Shown piece by piece: positions 51,218-58,555 of a stretch of 64,000 nucleotides of DNA. Positions within the stretch are counted from its first letter, which is position 1. Every line of letters begins with the position of its first letter. The DNA comes from Agrococcus sp. KRD186. Lineage in GTDB: Bacteria; Actinomycetota; Actinomycetes; Actinomycetales; Microbacteriaceae. Location of the stretch: assembly GCF_017168255.1 (NCBI RefSeq), contig NZ_JABFAP010000001.1, positions 2,797,856 through 2,861,855 on the forward strand. The letters run 5' to 3'. The notes under the pieces are model-generated. The model had not been told where the DNA came from. It did no database searches and saw only the letters and a program-made list of their open reading frames with translations. A program made the translations under genes and the position numbers.

Positions 51218-53199
51218 TGCGCGTCGACGTCGACACCGCGGCGATCGCCGCCAACGTCCGCGCGCTGCGGTCCATCGTCGGCGTGCCCGTCTGCGGCGTC
51301 GTGAAGGCCGACGGCTACGGTCACGGCGCGCTGCGCTCGGCGACCGCCATGCTCGAGGGCGGCGCGGCGATGGTAGGCGTCGTCGACCTGCACGAGGCGC
51401 TGGCGCTGCGCCGCGCCGGCATCGACGCGCCGCTGCTGGCTTGGCTGCACGGCGCGGGCACCGACTTCCGGGTCGCCGCCGCGTACGACATCGAGGTGGC
51501 GGTCTCCTCGATCGCGCAGCTCGAGGCCGCTGCGACCGCCGGCGCCACGATCCACCTGAAGCTCGACACCGGCCTGGGCCGCAACGGCATCGCGCGCCGG
51601 GATCGGGCACGGGCGATCGCCCGAGCGATCGAGCTCGCCCACGGCGGTGCGCGCATCCGCGGCGCCATGTCGCACCTGGCCGGCAGCAACCGCGAGGCCG
51701 ACCTCGCGCAGGTCGCCGACTTCACGGCCGCGCTCGATCAGGCGGCGCCGCTCGGGTCCCTGGTGCGGCACCTGGCGAACTCGCAGGGCGCGCTCGCGCT
51801 GCCGGAGGCCCGCTTCGACCTGGTGCGCATCGGCATGGCTGCCTACGGCATCGACCCGAACGGCCCGGCCGCCGGCGACGGGGCAGCCGCTGGAGCGCTG
51901 GGCCTGGTGCCGGCGATGCGGGTGACCGCGGAGTTCGTCGACGGCGTCGCGAGCTGCGGGCTCGACGACGGCCTGCTGCCCGCCCTCGGCGCGCCGGTGC
52001 GCGTCGGCGGCGAGCTCGCGCGGGTCGTCGCGATCGACCCGTGCCGGCTTCGCATCGAGCCGGCGCTGACGGGCGAGGGCGTGCTGTGGGGCGACCCGGC
52101 GGCAGGGGAGCCGAGTGCGGATGCGTGGGCCGCTGCCGCGGGCACGATCGGCTACGAGACGGTCACCAGGATGTCGGCCGCGGACGGCGGCACCGCCACC
52201 GCCAGCGACGCAGCCACCGCGCCCCGCCGGGTGCTCGAGCTCGGCCTCGACGGCGAGCCGAGCCGGCTGCTGGGTCAGGTGATCGGGGTCAAGCGCGCGG
52301 AGGCGGGCCTGGGCATCTCCTACGGCGGCGAGTACGTGACACCGGGCGAGACGACGCTCGCGCTCGTCGGCCTGGGGTACGCCGACGGCGTCACCCGCGC
52401 GGCGAGCGGCCGGCCCGCGGTGCTCGCCGGCGAGGCGCACCCGATCCGCGGCCGGGTGGCCATGGATCAGTTCGTGCTCGACATCGGCGACCGCCTCGCG
52501 AGCGTGGGCGACGCGGTCGAGCTCGCCCACGCATCCGCCCCCGAGCTCACCGGCATGATCGGCGCTCGCGTCGCGGTCGAGCTGGCCGGCTCGATCGCCG
52601 ACGCCGACGAGATGGAGGCGCTCGGCGAGCGGATCGGCGCGCGGCTGCGCGCGGGCGATGCCGTGCTGCTGATCGGCCCGCTCGGCGCCGGCAAGACCAC
52701 CCTCACTCGCGGCATCGGCAGGGCGCTGGGCGCGCGCGGCACGGTGCAGAGCCCCACCTTCGTGCTCGCTCGCACCCATCGCACCGCCGCCGGGCCCGCG
52801 CTGCAGCACGTCGACGCCTACCGGCTGCTCGCCGACGACGACGATGAGGCCGAGCTCGACGATCTCGATCTCGACCTCGAGGGCGCCATCACGGTCGCCG
52901 AGTGGGGCGCGCCGCTCGAGCACGCGCTCGAGTCGTGGCTGCGCGTGGAGATCGCGCGGCCCGTCGCCGGTGAGGATGACGGCGACGACGACGAGGCATC
53001 GCCGCGCGCGGTGCGCCTCAGCGGCCACGGGCCGGGGTGGCCCGCCGGGCGCGTGCGCGGCCTCGCGGCCGATCGCGCCGTGCGGGTTGCCGGCCCCGCG
53101 GCCGAGCTCCGGGACCCCTTGCGGATCGGGGGACCCGATGCAGCGGGTCCCGCAAGCCAGAACGGGTCCGCGGGCGACGACAGGCAGGAGCTCGCATGA
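51217..53199 (+). CDS. alr-tsaE: Fused alanine racemase-TsaE with rearranged racemase C-domain
   Basis: A single 660-residue frame. Residues 1-225 are the racemase barrel with PLP lysine K30 (VVKADGYGHG). The C-domain is odd: a segment ending VLWGDPAAGEPSADAWAAA and GTIGYETVTR (309-318), normally the very end of Alr, comes first, and the block with catalytic Y369 (SYGGEY), GLGYADGVTR and MDQ (416-418) comes after a linker. From about 465, TsaE follows, with Walker A GPLGAGKTT (K493); TsaE is the ATPase of tRNA t6A synthesis with TsaB and TsaD. The last 60 residues are low-complexity. An internal start for a separate TsaE cannot be excluded. Confidence 0.88.
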   Translation: MRVDVDTAAIAANVRALRSIVGVPVCGVVKADGYGHGALRSATAMLEGGAAMVGVVDLHEALALRRAGIDAPLLAWLHGAGTDFRVAAAYDIEVAVSSIAQLEAAATAGATIHLKLDTGLGRNGIARRDRARAIARAIELAHGGARIRGAMSHLAGSNREADLAQVADFTAALDQAAPLGSLVRHLANSQGALALPEARFDLVRIGMAAYGIDPNGPAAGDGAAAGALGLVPAMRVTAEFVDGVASCGLDDGLLPALGAPVRVGGELARVVAIDPCRLRIEPALTGEGVLWGDPAAGEPSADAWAAAAGTIGYETVTRMSAADGGTATASDAATAPRRVLELGLDGEPSRLLGQVIGVKRAEAGLGISYGGEYVTPGETTLALVGLGYADGVTRAASGRPAVLAGEAHPIRGRVAMDQFVLDIGDRLASVGDAVELAHASAPELTGMIGARVAVELAGSIADADEMEALGERIGARLRAGDAVLLIGPLGAGKTTLTRGIGRALGARGTVQSPTFVLARTHRTAAGPALQHVDAYRLLADDDDEAELDDLDLDLEGAITVAEWGAPLEHALESWLRVEIARPVAGEDDGDDDEASPRAVRLSGHGPGWPAGRVRGLAADRAVRVAGPAAELRDPLRIGGPDAAGPASQNGSAGDDRQELA

Positions 53200-53240
53200 C
53201 GCAGCAGAGCATGACGCAGCAGAGCATGACGCAGCAGGCT
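53196..53240 (+). repeat. Three tandem 15-bp repeats at tsaB start
   Basis: ATGACGCAGCAGAGC occurs at 53196 and 53211 and, with the last two bases changed, at 53226. Each unit encodes MTQQS/A in frame and offers its own ATG. Confidence 0.9.
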
Positions 53241-55487: not shown

Positions 55488-55886
55488 ATGAGTCAGACCG
55501 GTTGGCAGCAGCCCGCGTGGGGCACAGCTGCAGCACCCATGCCTGCGGGAGCCATGCCGCCGCCGCCCATGCCTGCGCAGCCGCAGCCGATGCAGTGGAC
55601 GGCGCCGACGCATCCGGGACCGAAGACCGATCTGCTGGCGCTGCTCGCGATCGGTGCAGCGGCACTGGGCACCACCGTCTTCGTCGGGCTCGGATCGCTC
55701 GCCGCGATCGTGCTCGGGTTCATCGCGCTGCGCCGCATCGCGCGCACCGGCGACGACGGCCGCCTGCTCGCGATCTGGGCGATCCTGCTCGGGATCGCCA
55801 CCATCGTCGCGATCATCGCCAGCACGATCATCGGCATCGGCGCGTTCCTGGCGATCGCCGAGCAGTTCGGGGCACTGGGCGTCTGA
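55488..55886 (+). CDS. DUF4190-type membrane protein
   Basis: A 132-residue protein: a Pro/Met/Gln-rich cytosolic N-terminus (residues 1-45), then two transmembrane helices (about 50-75 and 92-122) around [13 protein letters not shown], the DUF4190 pattern. GGGAGG precedes ATG 55488. Function unknown. Confidence 0.75.
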
Positions 55887-55983
55887 GCGCGTCCACCTCG
55901 CGCTCACAATTCATCCAGGCTGCGCTTGCCTGCCGCGCGGTACGGTGGTGCCCGCGCAACCGCGCGCCGCAAGGAGGTTTCCC

Positions 55984-56946
55984 GTGAGCGACCAGTTCCC
56001 GCCGGCCGACGACCGATTCCGTCGACCCGACCAGGGCGAGCCAGAGCAGGCGAACGCCGCGCCGACAGATGGTGCGCAGGCGGGCGACCCCGCGAGCGCG
56101 CAGCCCGCGGCTGATTTCGGCCAGCAGGCAGAGCAGGTGCCCTCGTTCGGTCAGGCGCAGGATGCTCCGGCGGCACCGTCGTACGGCGATCAGAGCCAGC
56201 AGCAGGCGCCTTCGTATGGCCAGCCCGCGCAGGAGGCGCCCGGCTACGGCCAGCAGCAGCCCTACGGTCAGCCCACTGGGCAGCAGCAGGGCTTCGGCCA
56301 GCCGCCCGCGCAGGAGCCCCCCGCCTACGGTCAGCAGCCCGGCTACGGCCAGCCGGCGGCGCAGGAGCCCCCCGCCTACGGTCAGCAGCTCGGCCACGGC
56401 CAGCCGGCCGCACAGGGTGGCTCGGCGCCCTACGGTCAGCAGCCCGATGCCTCGCAGCAGCAGGCATACGGTCAGCAGCCGAGTTACGGCACCAGCGCCC
56501 CCTCGTACGGTCAGCAGCAGTACGGGCAGAGTGCTCCGGCCGACCAGGCCTACGGCCAGCAGCCTCCCGCCTACGGCCAGCAGTCTGCCTACGGCCAGCA
56601 GACCTCCTACGGCGACCCGGCGGCTGTCGGCTACGGCCAGCAGCAGGGCTACGGCCAGCAGCAGGGCTTTGCGCAACCGGGGGAGAAGAAGATCAAGGGC
56701 ATCACGCTCTGGTCCATCATCCTGACCGCTCTGGGCGTGCTCGGCACGTTCCTCTTCGGTACCGGTTTCCTGCCCGCTGCCGTCGGCTCGGTCCTCGGCT
56801 TCGTCGCCATCAAGAAGAATCCGGAGGCAAAGCCCTGGCCGCTCATCATGGGCATCGTCGGCGCGCTGGCCGCGATCATCTCGCTGGGCCTGTTCATCTT
56901 CAACATCATGAGCTTGATCGCATGGGCGCAGTACGCTGGAATGTGA
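55984..56946 (+). CDS. YGQ-repeat low-complexity membrane protein
   Basis: GTG 55984 lies after AAGGAGG. Residues about 60-235 of 320 are a low-complexity tract made of many copies of YGQQ/GYGQ/SYGQ with Pro and Ala between them. The C-terminus has two hydrophobic segments ([20 protein letters not shown] and [20 protein letters not shown]) with [10 protein letters not shown] between, as in DUF4190 proteins. The tract resembles the Tyr-Gly-Gln prion-like domain of eukaryotic FUS-class proteins in composition only. It follows another DUF4190-type gene. Function unknown. Confidence 0.75.
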
Positions 56947-56953
56947 CGTCACG

Positions 56954-57259
56954 GTGAGCTCGGCGGGCCGGCCGGGCGACCCCGACGTCGGGACCCGTGG
57001 CTGGTCGACATTGACGCTCGCCGCGCTGATCCTCGCAGGGCTCGGACTCGTGTTCGCGCCAGCCAGCGGCATCGGCCTGCCGTTCGCGCTCGCGGGCACG
57101 ATCTGCGCGGCGATCGCGATTCCGCGCGATCGCCGCGCGCGCCCGTGGCCACTCATCGCGCTCGTCGCAGGCCTGCTCGGCACGCTGCTCGCCGCCGTGC
57201 TCGTCGTGGTCGCCATGGTCACCTGGGGGCCGCTCGTCCCGGGGCTGCTGCTGCCCTGA
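56954..57259 (+). CDS. Small two- to three-helix membrane protein
   Basis: A 101-residue ORF from GTG 56954, seven bases after the previous gene. Hydrophobic segments lie at about residues 18-37, 40-55 and 64-95, with IPRDRRARPWPL between the last two, similar in layout to its two upstream neighbours. It probably belongs to the same small membrane-protein group. Function unknown. Confidence 0.6.
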   Translation: MSSAGRPGDPDVGTRGWSTLTLAALILAGLGLVFAPASGIGLPFALAGTICAAIAIPRDRRARPWPLIALVAGLLGTLLAAVLVVVAMVTWGPLVPGLLLP

Positions 57260-57269
57260 GGGCACCGCC

Positions 57270-58472
57270 TCAGCTGTGGCCCGCGGCCTCCGCCGAGACC
57301 CGATCGGCGAGGATCGCCCGGTGGCGGCCGCCGACGCGCGTCGCGAAGAGCGTCGCGCGCTCGTCACCGGAGAGCTTCAGCCGCTTGCGCAGGGTCGCCG
57401 GGTCGATGTCGGCGCCGCGCTTCTTGATCTCCAGCTCGCCGATGCCGAGCTCCCGCAGCCGCTGCGCGATGCGGCGCTCGTCCAGCGGCAGGGTCTCCCG
57501 CACTCTGAACGCCTGCGCGAGCGGCGTGGTCGCCTGCTGCGGCCCGCTCAGGTAGGCGATGCCGTCGCTGATGCTCGTCGCACCCAGCTGCTCGGCGAGC
57601 GTGCCGATCAGCTCTGCCCTGATCACCGCGCCGGCCGGCTCGTAGAGCCACTCGCCCAGCTCGCCGGGCTCCGGGTGCGCGGGCTCGCCCGCGAGCTCCG
57701 CGGCGCCGCCGTCGCCGAGCACGAGCGCGCTGCGGACGATGCCCTGCCGGGCCAGCGAGCCGGTCCACACGACCGCCTCGACCGTCTCCAGCCCATCCGT
57801 CACCCACTGGTGCTCGGCCTCCGCGGGCAGCAGCGCCCGGTCGATGCCCGGCGCGAGCTTCACCCCGGCGGGCCGCTCGGCCGCGCGTGCGAACACCGCA
57901 TCGAGCGCCGGCGACCAGTCGCCCGGGTCGCTCAAGCGCCTGCGCCCATCGCGGCGGGCGGGGTCGAACCAGAGCGCCTCCGCGTCGACCGGTGTCTCGA
58001 GCGCGTCGCCGTGCACGACGGATGCGTGCCACGCGGCGAGGTTGTACGTCGCGATCGCGGCGGTCACCTCGTCGCGCTCGACAGCGGTGACCTCGAGCCC
58101 GAGGGTGGCGAACGCGAGGGAGTCGGCACCGATGCCGCACCCCAGGTCGGCCACCGAGACGATGCCGGCCGAGCGCATCCGCCCCGCATGGTGCGCGGCG
58201 ACGCGCAGCCGCGTCGCCTGCTCGAGCCCGGCCTCGGTGAAGAGCATCTCGGTGGCGAACTCACCGAACTTCGCGCGCGCCCTGCGGCGCAGCTTCGCCT
58301 GCGTGAGCACGGCGGCGACCAGCCGGGGGTCGTGCCCCTCGGCCCGCAGCCGGGTCACCTCGCGCACCAGGTCGCGATCGTCGAGCCCGGTGCCGTCCGG
58401 GCCAGCCTCGACGCGCTCGAGCAGCGCGAGCCCGTCGGCGGACAGCAGTGCGCGCAGCTCTTCGGCATCCAT
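57270..58472 (-). CDS. SAM-dependent methyltransferase with THUMP-like domain
   Basis: A 400-residue protein. SAM motif I is VADLGCGIGADSLAFA, followed by VTAVERDEVTAAIATYNL and a LWFDPARRDGRRR loop where methyltransferases of this class place the catalytic DPP/NPP motif. The C-terminal LGIGELEIKKRGADIDPATLRKRL is the THUMP-like tail, implying an RNA substrate. ATG 58472 (MDAEELRALL) is the first reasonable Met; GGAGG is only one base away, so the true start is uncertain. Divergent from groES. Confidence 0.78.
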   Translation of the reverse strand: MDAEELRALLSADGLALLERVEAGPDGTGLDDRDLVREVTRLRAEGHDPRLVAAVLTQAKLRRRARAKFGEFATEMLFTEAGLEQATRLRVAAHHAGRMRSAGIVSVADLGCGIGADSLAFATLGLEVTAVERDEVTAAIATYNLAAWHASVVHGDALETPVDAEALWFDPARRDGRRRLSDPGDWSPALDAVFARAAERPAGVKLAPGIDRALLPAEAEHQWVTDGLETVEAVVWTGSLARQGIVRSALVLGDGGAAELAGEPAHPEPGELGEWLYEPAGAVIRAELIGTLAEQLGATSISDGIAYLSGPQQATTPLAQAFRVRETLPLDERRIAQRLRELGIGELEIKKRGADIDPATLRKRLKLSGDERATLFATRVGGRHRAILADRVSAEAAGHS

Positions 58473-58522
58473 GCCTCCAGTGAAGCACCGCGCGGGCTCG
58501 TGCCGCGTCGCCGCGAGGCCCG

Positions 58523-58555
58523 CGATTGGCACTCATGTTGACCGAGTGCCAATCG
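58523..58555. promoter_or_regulatory. CIRCE element (HrcA operator)
   Basis: TTGGCACTC (58526-58534), nine bases, GAGTGCCAA (58544-58552): the CIRCE pattern, with arms extended to 12 bp (58523-58534 and 58544-58555). It indicates HrcA repression of groES. Confidence 0.92.

Follow-up and report, generated by a model that had tools for sequence, protein, structure and literature searches.

The window, by which we mean the whole 64,000-nucleotide stretch of Agrococcus sp. KRD186 DNA that was analysed, holds a run of three small membrane-protein genes (55488–55886, 55984–56946 and 56954–57259), as the original prediction had it, the middle one of which, P0001, encodes a long aromatic-Gly-Gln tail ahead of a membrane anchor. 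The P0001 frame opens with GTG at 55984 on the plus strand and its stop codon ends at 56946, so that open frame and translation bear out the coordinates first given for the feature, and the next gene starts 7 nt past the stop. A scan for sigma-70 promoters and terminators, uninformative for an actinobacterium, found none. The features of the locus are these:

55488..55886, plus strand: P0002, the upstream neighbour, a 132-aa DUF4190 protein whose tail is short and of Pro/Met/Ala type (PF13828 score 39.3 bits, cut-off 35)
55971..55977, plus strand: Shine-Dalgarno sequence AAGGAGG, a seven-base match
55984..56946, plus strand: P0001, the tailed membrane-protein gene, 320 aa, GTG start (open frame and translation)
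55984..56034, plus strand: N-terminal head, residues 1–17 (conservation among genus homologues)
56113..56676, plus strand: aromatic-Gly-Gln tract, predicted to be disordered, residues 44–231, with 18 [YF]GQ (shuffles, 23 homologues, low pLDDT, tandem repeats)
56683..56700, plus strand: basic cluster EKKIKG ahead of helix 1, a putative topology signal (translation, alignment A1)
56698..56940, plus strand: predicted three-helix membrane anchor, read as a divergent DUF4190 type (AlphaFold2 pLDDT 90, profile comparisons, Pfam)
56954..57259, plus strand: P0003, the downstream neighbour, 101 aa, a tail-less anchor paralogue (E = 6.9e-7 to P0001 residues 227–314)

Around these genes, tsaE, tsaB, rimI, tsaD, GroES and RarD each score above an NCBIfam cut-off, and the minus-strand gene at 57270–58532, which matches Pfam Thump_like only, is presumably a methyltransferase. 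We compared 20 loci from the 22 other genus genomes with a P0001 homologue, leaving out G012 and G022, and found one order in all 20: tsaB, rimI, tsaD, a DUF4190 gene, the P0001 homologue, the THUMP-like gene on the opposite strand, groES and rarD. The DUF4190 gene of the P0002 type is present at every one of these loci, and P0003 occurs as a separate gene at seven. A tblastn query with the window anchor matched 18 of the 20; at the other two (G014 and G008) the slot is matched by the P0003 query only, in the place of the P0001 homologue. In two loci (L085, L093) the tailed gene is separated from the THUMP-like gene by one to two kb more DNA than elsewhere in the genus. Further afield, the anchor profile matched 172 of 299 genomes of the family, and the slot is old, because both tsaD and the THUMP-like gene adjoin 21 of the 23 best loci from other genera.

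Modelled with AlphaFold2 from 92 residues and 22 genus sequences (alignment A1), the anchor forms helices at residues 239–258, 262–278 and 285–319 with a mean pLDDT of 90, and a full-length run on 10 sequences (mean pLDDT 49, anchor blocks 57–80) again gave three anchor helices. Membrane anchoring, as first proposed, holds, but the two transmembrane helices proposed with it model as three. The helix hairpin, the basic loop KKNPEAK (residues 277–283) and the third helix follow a DUF4190-like layout, which we read from P0002 and the relatives in the same slot, not from a solved structure. Actinobacterial DUF4190 proteins (PF13828) share with P0001 the hydrophobic pair, the basic loop and the third hydrophobic stretch, as well as an N-terminal low-complexity or small-domain segment, while P0001 departs from them in an anchor that falls below the Pfam cut-off and in an unusually long aromatic-Gly-Gln tail. 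P0001 itself has no listed PF13828 match at E up to 1 and does not reach the 35-bit cut-off, nor does its anchor reach the cut-off of any other Pfam family listed. At E up to 1 the family does match 17 of the 22 anchors from the genus, with 5.7e-4 as the best value, and all 23 of the best relatives found outside the genus with the anchor profile (best 6.8e-14). An hhalign comparison of the anchor with the P0002-type set scored 92.2% (E = 6e-7, 58 columns), and one with the A3 profile 99.4%, the latter partly by construction since A3 was collected with A1. On this sequence evidence we read the P0001 anchor as a divergent DUF4190-type domain lying below the Pfam cut-off.

Two other families were considered and rejected. 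A phage-holin family is the best Pfam match of P0001, ranking above DUF4190, but stays below its cut-off of 27 bits with the full protein (17.4 bits, E = 0.0046) and with the anchor alone (20.1 bits, E = 6.6e-4), and 4 of 22 members match it. MARVEL (PF01284) gave weak matches, at E up to 1, to 13 of the 22 anchors, and its best E on that set (4.7e-5) is lower than the best for DUF4190 (5.7e-4); the model has three helices, not four. A PDB fold search with the anchor yielded nothing at E up to 0.001, the lowest E being 0.75; the top VIA-align hit was a soluble MIT three-helix bundle (Z 7.4), which is within chance for helical bundles, and a PDB sequence search was empty up to E = 1.

By the established positive-inside rule, positively charged segments of a membrane protein lie on the cytoplasmic side, and in the P0001 translation and model the basic residues stand just before helix 1 (EKKIKG) and at the turn between helices 2 and 3 (KKNPEAK). 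A hydropathy scan gave its first window over 1.5 at residue 237, with no earlier hydrophobic segment, and since the charges are placed in this way the rule would put the tract in the cytoplasm. We also sampled DUF4190 proteins at 30 loci, two of which were skipped at contig edges, and among the resulting 28 (one, L126, having no N-terminal segment and another, L127, a doubtful start) scanned ten N-terminal segments chosen by eye as resembling small domains: four match zinc ribbons, DUF1707 was matched by three and DUF2510 by one, and the remaining two had no match. Zinc ribbon, DUF1707 and DUF2510 modules are of the cytosolic type, and these relatives agree in part with a cytoplasmic tail. Sequence and model together indicate that the Tyr-Gly-Gln tail probably faces the cell interior.

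Contact with the cell wall, which the original prediction had suggested, would then be unlikely, given the charge pattern and the N-terminal modules of the relatives, and we find that suggestion unsupported. Stretches rich in Pro, Gly, Gln and Tyr do occur generally in wall-spanning proteins, a consideration that has nothing specific to P0001 in it, and a surface-exposed tail contacting peptidoglycan has several features against it: a 235-residue segment ahead of the first helix, no hydrophobic segment before residue 237, positive charges on the tail side and at the turn between helices 2 and 3, and relatives some of which bear zinc ribbons or DUF1707 at the same end. We regard such a tail as very unlikely.

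The tract itself is about 175–190 residues long. It was described at the outset as a Tyr-Gly-Gln repeat of roughly 175 residues, and it is real: residues 44–231 hold 15 YGQ and 18 [YF]GQ, whereas 20,000 shuffles of these residues averaged 1.06 [YF]GQ (sd 0.99) and reached 7 at most. It consists of 28% Q, 17% G, 14% A, 13% P and 10% Y, has neither Lys nor Arg and carries a net charge of −10, and its DNA is partly made of imperfect 18-bp and 51-bp tandem repeats. In the full-length AlphaFold2 model residues 22–234 mostly have a pLDDT under 50. This composition and low pLDDT fit a prion-like domain, with the qualification that Asn is absent, Ser is low, and Pro and Ala are high. The likeness initially drawn to phase-separating prion-like domains holds as one to aromatic 'sticker' low-complexity domains, given the modelled disorder, the near-zero Lys and Arg and the excess of [YFW]GQ over every shuffle in 23 of 23 homologues, and the retention of aromatics in aligned homologues.

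Conservation was followed through 24 Agrococcus genomes, one per species. The anchor domain is present in 23, the one genome without it (G019) being 65% complete, and all 23 genus homologues have an in-frame start with [ST][DE]Q behind it, their starts having been chosen by a script that prefers this pattern. All 23 best genus homologues carry the aromatic-Gly-Gln tract, so that its absence from all relatives, an outcome named beforehand as telling against the feature, is contradicted. Each homologue tract contains 6–23 [YFW]GQ, in every case above the maximum of 1000 shuffles; Lys and Arg together number zero in 21 tracts and one in the other two, and aliphatics (I, L, V, M) number 0–4. Tract length, cut by script from residue 19 to 92 residues from the end, ranges from 146 to 250 residues across the 23 genomes. 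In every one of the 23 homologues the aromatics are spaced more evenly than in shuffles, an evenness that tandem repetition alone would produce.

Substitutions within the repeat unit point to the aromatic residue. Among 430 xGQ triplets, which are not independent events since repeats duplicate and relatives share ancestry, x is Y in 308, F in 41, Q in 23, P in 18, W in 14, H in 7, A in 7 and another residue in 12. Cys and Asn never occur at this position, though each is one base from TAC, which argues that the aromatic is kept and not the codon. WGQ stands beside YGQ in three homologues, and NPYGQQ occurs in three. In alignment A2, made of the window protein and nine other genus homologues (one row, L012, carrying an extra residue before the start), 175 of the 184 cells aligned to window aromatics are themselves aromatic, while the cells kept number 187 of 253 for G, 290 of 392 for Q, 119 of 194 for P, 116 of 205 for A and 31 of 99 for S; this is supportive and not proof, because aligners favour Tyr, which inflates the figure, and because the repeats are not independent.

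Outside the genus, the tails that occupy the same slot vary. Among the 23 best relatives (one of them, L060, with a doubtful start) they are Pro/Ala-rich, Lys/Ala-rich (L049, L062), GYPAQ-rich (L056) or YGQ-rich (L061, L064, L066), and three or more [YFW]GQ are found in four, three of these from one genus, the other 19 having fewer. Since these tails vary, while every best homologue in Agrococcus has the aromatic-Gly-Gln tract, tail chemistry is exchangeable at the level of the family and kept within Agrococcus; and since most slot relatives elsewhere are without YGQ chemistry, condensation through YGQ cannot be a core function common to the slot. At the two Lys/Ala-rich loci, in the tsaD slot of another genus, the tail is a long Lys/Ala/Ser/Thr repeat, the chemical opposite of a YGQ tail. 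The PYGQQP or YGQQPPAPG tails of the three YGQ-rich loci, all from one other genus, are a second occurrence of a YGQ tail in the family.

Such variation invites the reading that the tract is lineage-specific repeat filler, in which 18-bp and 51-bp units slip on a dispensable N-terminus of a DUF4190-type protein, to little functional effect. The tandem repeats, the spread of tract lengths, a paralogous anchor without a tail (P0003) and the different tails of sister genera are all as this reading would have them. It accounts poorly, however, for a tract that all 23 best homologues carry, though their anchors fall to 29% identity with that of the window, for a unit that drifts to WGQ or NPYGQQ while its aromatic stays, and for charge and aliphatics that stay near zero, and we consider it improbable.

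A second conserved element lies at the tip of the tail. Of the 23 genus homologues, 17 keep RFRR of the N-terminal head, and D9, R11, F12, R13, R14 and P15 do not vary across the ten rows of A2. Far from the window, the same genome encodes a second tailed DUF4190 paralogue (G000:C1:1933439-1934092; L033, L128), whose tail is rich in Tyr, Pro and Gln and which begins MQSDPDRFRPRD, with a DRFRPRD head. At E up to 1e-6 it has matches in 22 of the 24 genomes of the genus, some of these matches being other DUF4190 paralogues; among 18 orthologues, itself included, DRF is found within the first 40 residues in 11 and DRFRP in 10. A CGN-codon pattern for DRFR[P/R], GAYCGNTTYCGNCSNC, which covers CGN and not AGR codons, has four places in the Agrococcus sp. 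KRD186 genome, as many as a reversed control, so that the motif shows no numerical excess. The heads of P0001 and the second paralogue account for two of the four; of the others, one is out of frame in an opposite-strand open frame and one ends a 161-aa open frame. The exact pattern DRFRRPD and its control are each found a single time. The DRFR head common to P0001 and this second tailed paralogue is new here, and either common descent or a common function may account for it.

A head of this kind would give the tail a simpler role, that of a flexible tether: a long soluble linker giving the DRFR head access to a partner at some distance from the membrane, its aromatics a product of repeat expansion with nothing specific to do. 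Conservation of the head in P0001 homologues and A2, a similar head on the second paralogue and many of its orthologues, the coincidence of two of the four pattern places with the two heads, and tail chemistry that differs between genera would all suit a tether. A plain linker, on the other hand, would not require aromatics to be kept more than Ser, Ala and Pro, and Tyr is replaced by Phe or Trp rather than by His or Cys; six of the 23 genus homologues lack RFRR yet have the tract. Synonymous change in the head is also low, and is below non-synonymous change in one of 14 comparisons (that with L007 gave 0.00 synonymous against 0.08 non-synonymous change; the 14 homologues are those with an [ST]DQ start and FRR, compared over 16 head and 37 anchor codons), so that the constraint on the head may act instead on the DNA or on the translation start. 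We take the tether to be a possible account, though a good deal short of probable.

We favour, tentatively, a different explanation: tethered to the membrane, P0001 would use its tail as a sticker to form clusters at the inner face, and its head to gather a partner. This explanation builds on the tract, on its modelled disorder and anchor, and on the conservation set out above, and would add to them the cytoplasmic side, the clustering and the partner. Three helices would anchor P0001, with the N-terminal 235 residues, predicted to be disordered, in the cytoplasm; about 20 evenly spaced Tyr and Phe on spacers of Gln, Gly, Pro and Ala would make weak multivalent contacts among copies, and could also contact Arg-bearing partners in trans; copies of P0001 would gather into mobile clusters at the inner membrane face; and the DRFR head at the tip of the tail would bind a specific partner. 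Clustering by the tail, as first suggested, is a plausible hypothesis. Against a sticker tail stand the Pro/Ala-rich or Lys/Ala-rich tails that fill the slot in other genera, and a tract without Arg or Lys, for which strong phase separation would need a partner.

The FUS domain contains Tyr-Gly-Gln motifs, and P0001 differs from it in being membrane-anchored, low in Ser, high in Pro and Ala, and without Lys or Arg in its tract. The low-complexity domain of FUS is Tyr-rich and disordered, with 27 Tyr (PMC8424992), and belongs to an RNA-binding protein that has Arg in cis (PMC8424992, PMC10906006). The closer working parallel is the cytoplasmic tail of synaptophysin, an animal synaptic-vesicle protein. 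PMC8424992 reports that this tail consists of Y-G-P/Q-Q-G repeats, that changing nine Tyr to Ser abolishes its phase separation, that it coacervates with Arg-rich synapsin, and, for the tail alone, a cited concentration of 50 uM; PMC11260120 gives synaptophysin four membrane helices. Both proteins are small multi-helix membrane proteins with a Tyr-Gly repeat tail, Gly/Pro/Gln spacers and negative charge (PMC8424992). They differ in that the P0001 tail sits at the opposite end of the protein, with three helices instead of four and 18 units instead of 10; we claim no homology, P0001 being in a separate DUF4190-type family. By a rough estimate that assumes a membrane of 2–5 square micrometres and a layer of 6–10 nm, 360–1500 copies of P0001 per cell would correspond to 50 uM.

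Among actinobacterial proteins, PMC10906006 describes Rv1747 of Mycobacterium as a membrane ABC transporter whose disordered region condenses, with membrane condensates on record and an assembly that depends on phosphorylation state. Like P0001 it is an actinobacterial integral membrane protein, the condensation being seen for its cytoplasmic part; it is otherwise unrelated to P0001. Experimentally tested bacterial prion-like proteins include Rho and an SSB (PMC8409284), and the consulted parts of two surveys (PMC6400439, PMC8409284) mention no membrane protein of the P0001 sort. A further extension of the sticker tail, which we regard as doubtful, is that the two DUF4190-type proteins, encoded in separate places in the genome and alike in their disordered, Tyr-bearing tails and their DRFR heads, build a condensate layer on the inner face that gathers a common cytosolic partner, an independent counterpart of the synaptophysin tail.

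Literature searches found no paper for DUF4190, and none for Agrococcus with low complexity or for Microbacteriaceae with low-complexity. DUF4190 matches occur in 158 of 296 sampled genomes of the phylum at E up to 0.001, 128 of the 296 being over the cut-off, and the P0001 tail is a genuine, genus-wide conserved feature on a common actinobacterial membrane-protein type. An aromatic tail kept throughout a genus on a DUF4190-type anchor offers a mutable system in which to ask whether bacteria cluster membrane proteins with Tyr sticker tails, and the single conserved locus at which tail chemistry has changed serves as a natural experiment on the requirements of these tails.

Two further observations concern the locus and its copies. 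At the start of tsaB (window positions 53194–53237) the 15-bp unit GCATGACGCAGCAGA is repeated 2.9 times with no mismatch, and the tsaB start is ambiguous because each unit has an in-frame ATG (MTQQSMTQQSMTQQ). In one genus genome (G021), two loci about 111 kb apart on one contig and in opposite orientation (L005 and L026) encode an identical protein, counted once in the tract and xGQ counts, each with a P0003 neighbour; with an assembly contamination of 8%, these copies may be an assembly duplicate.
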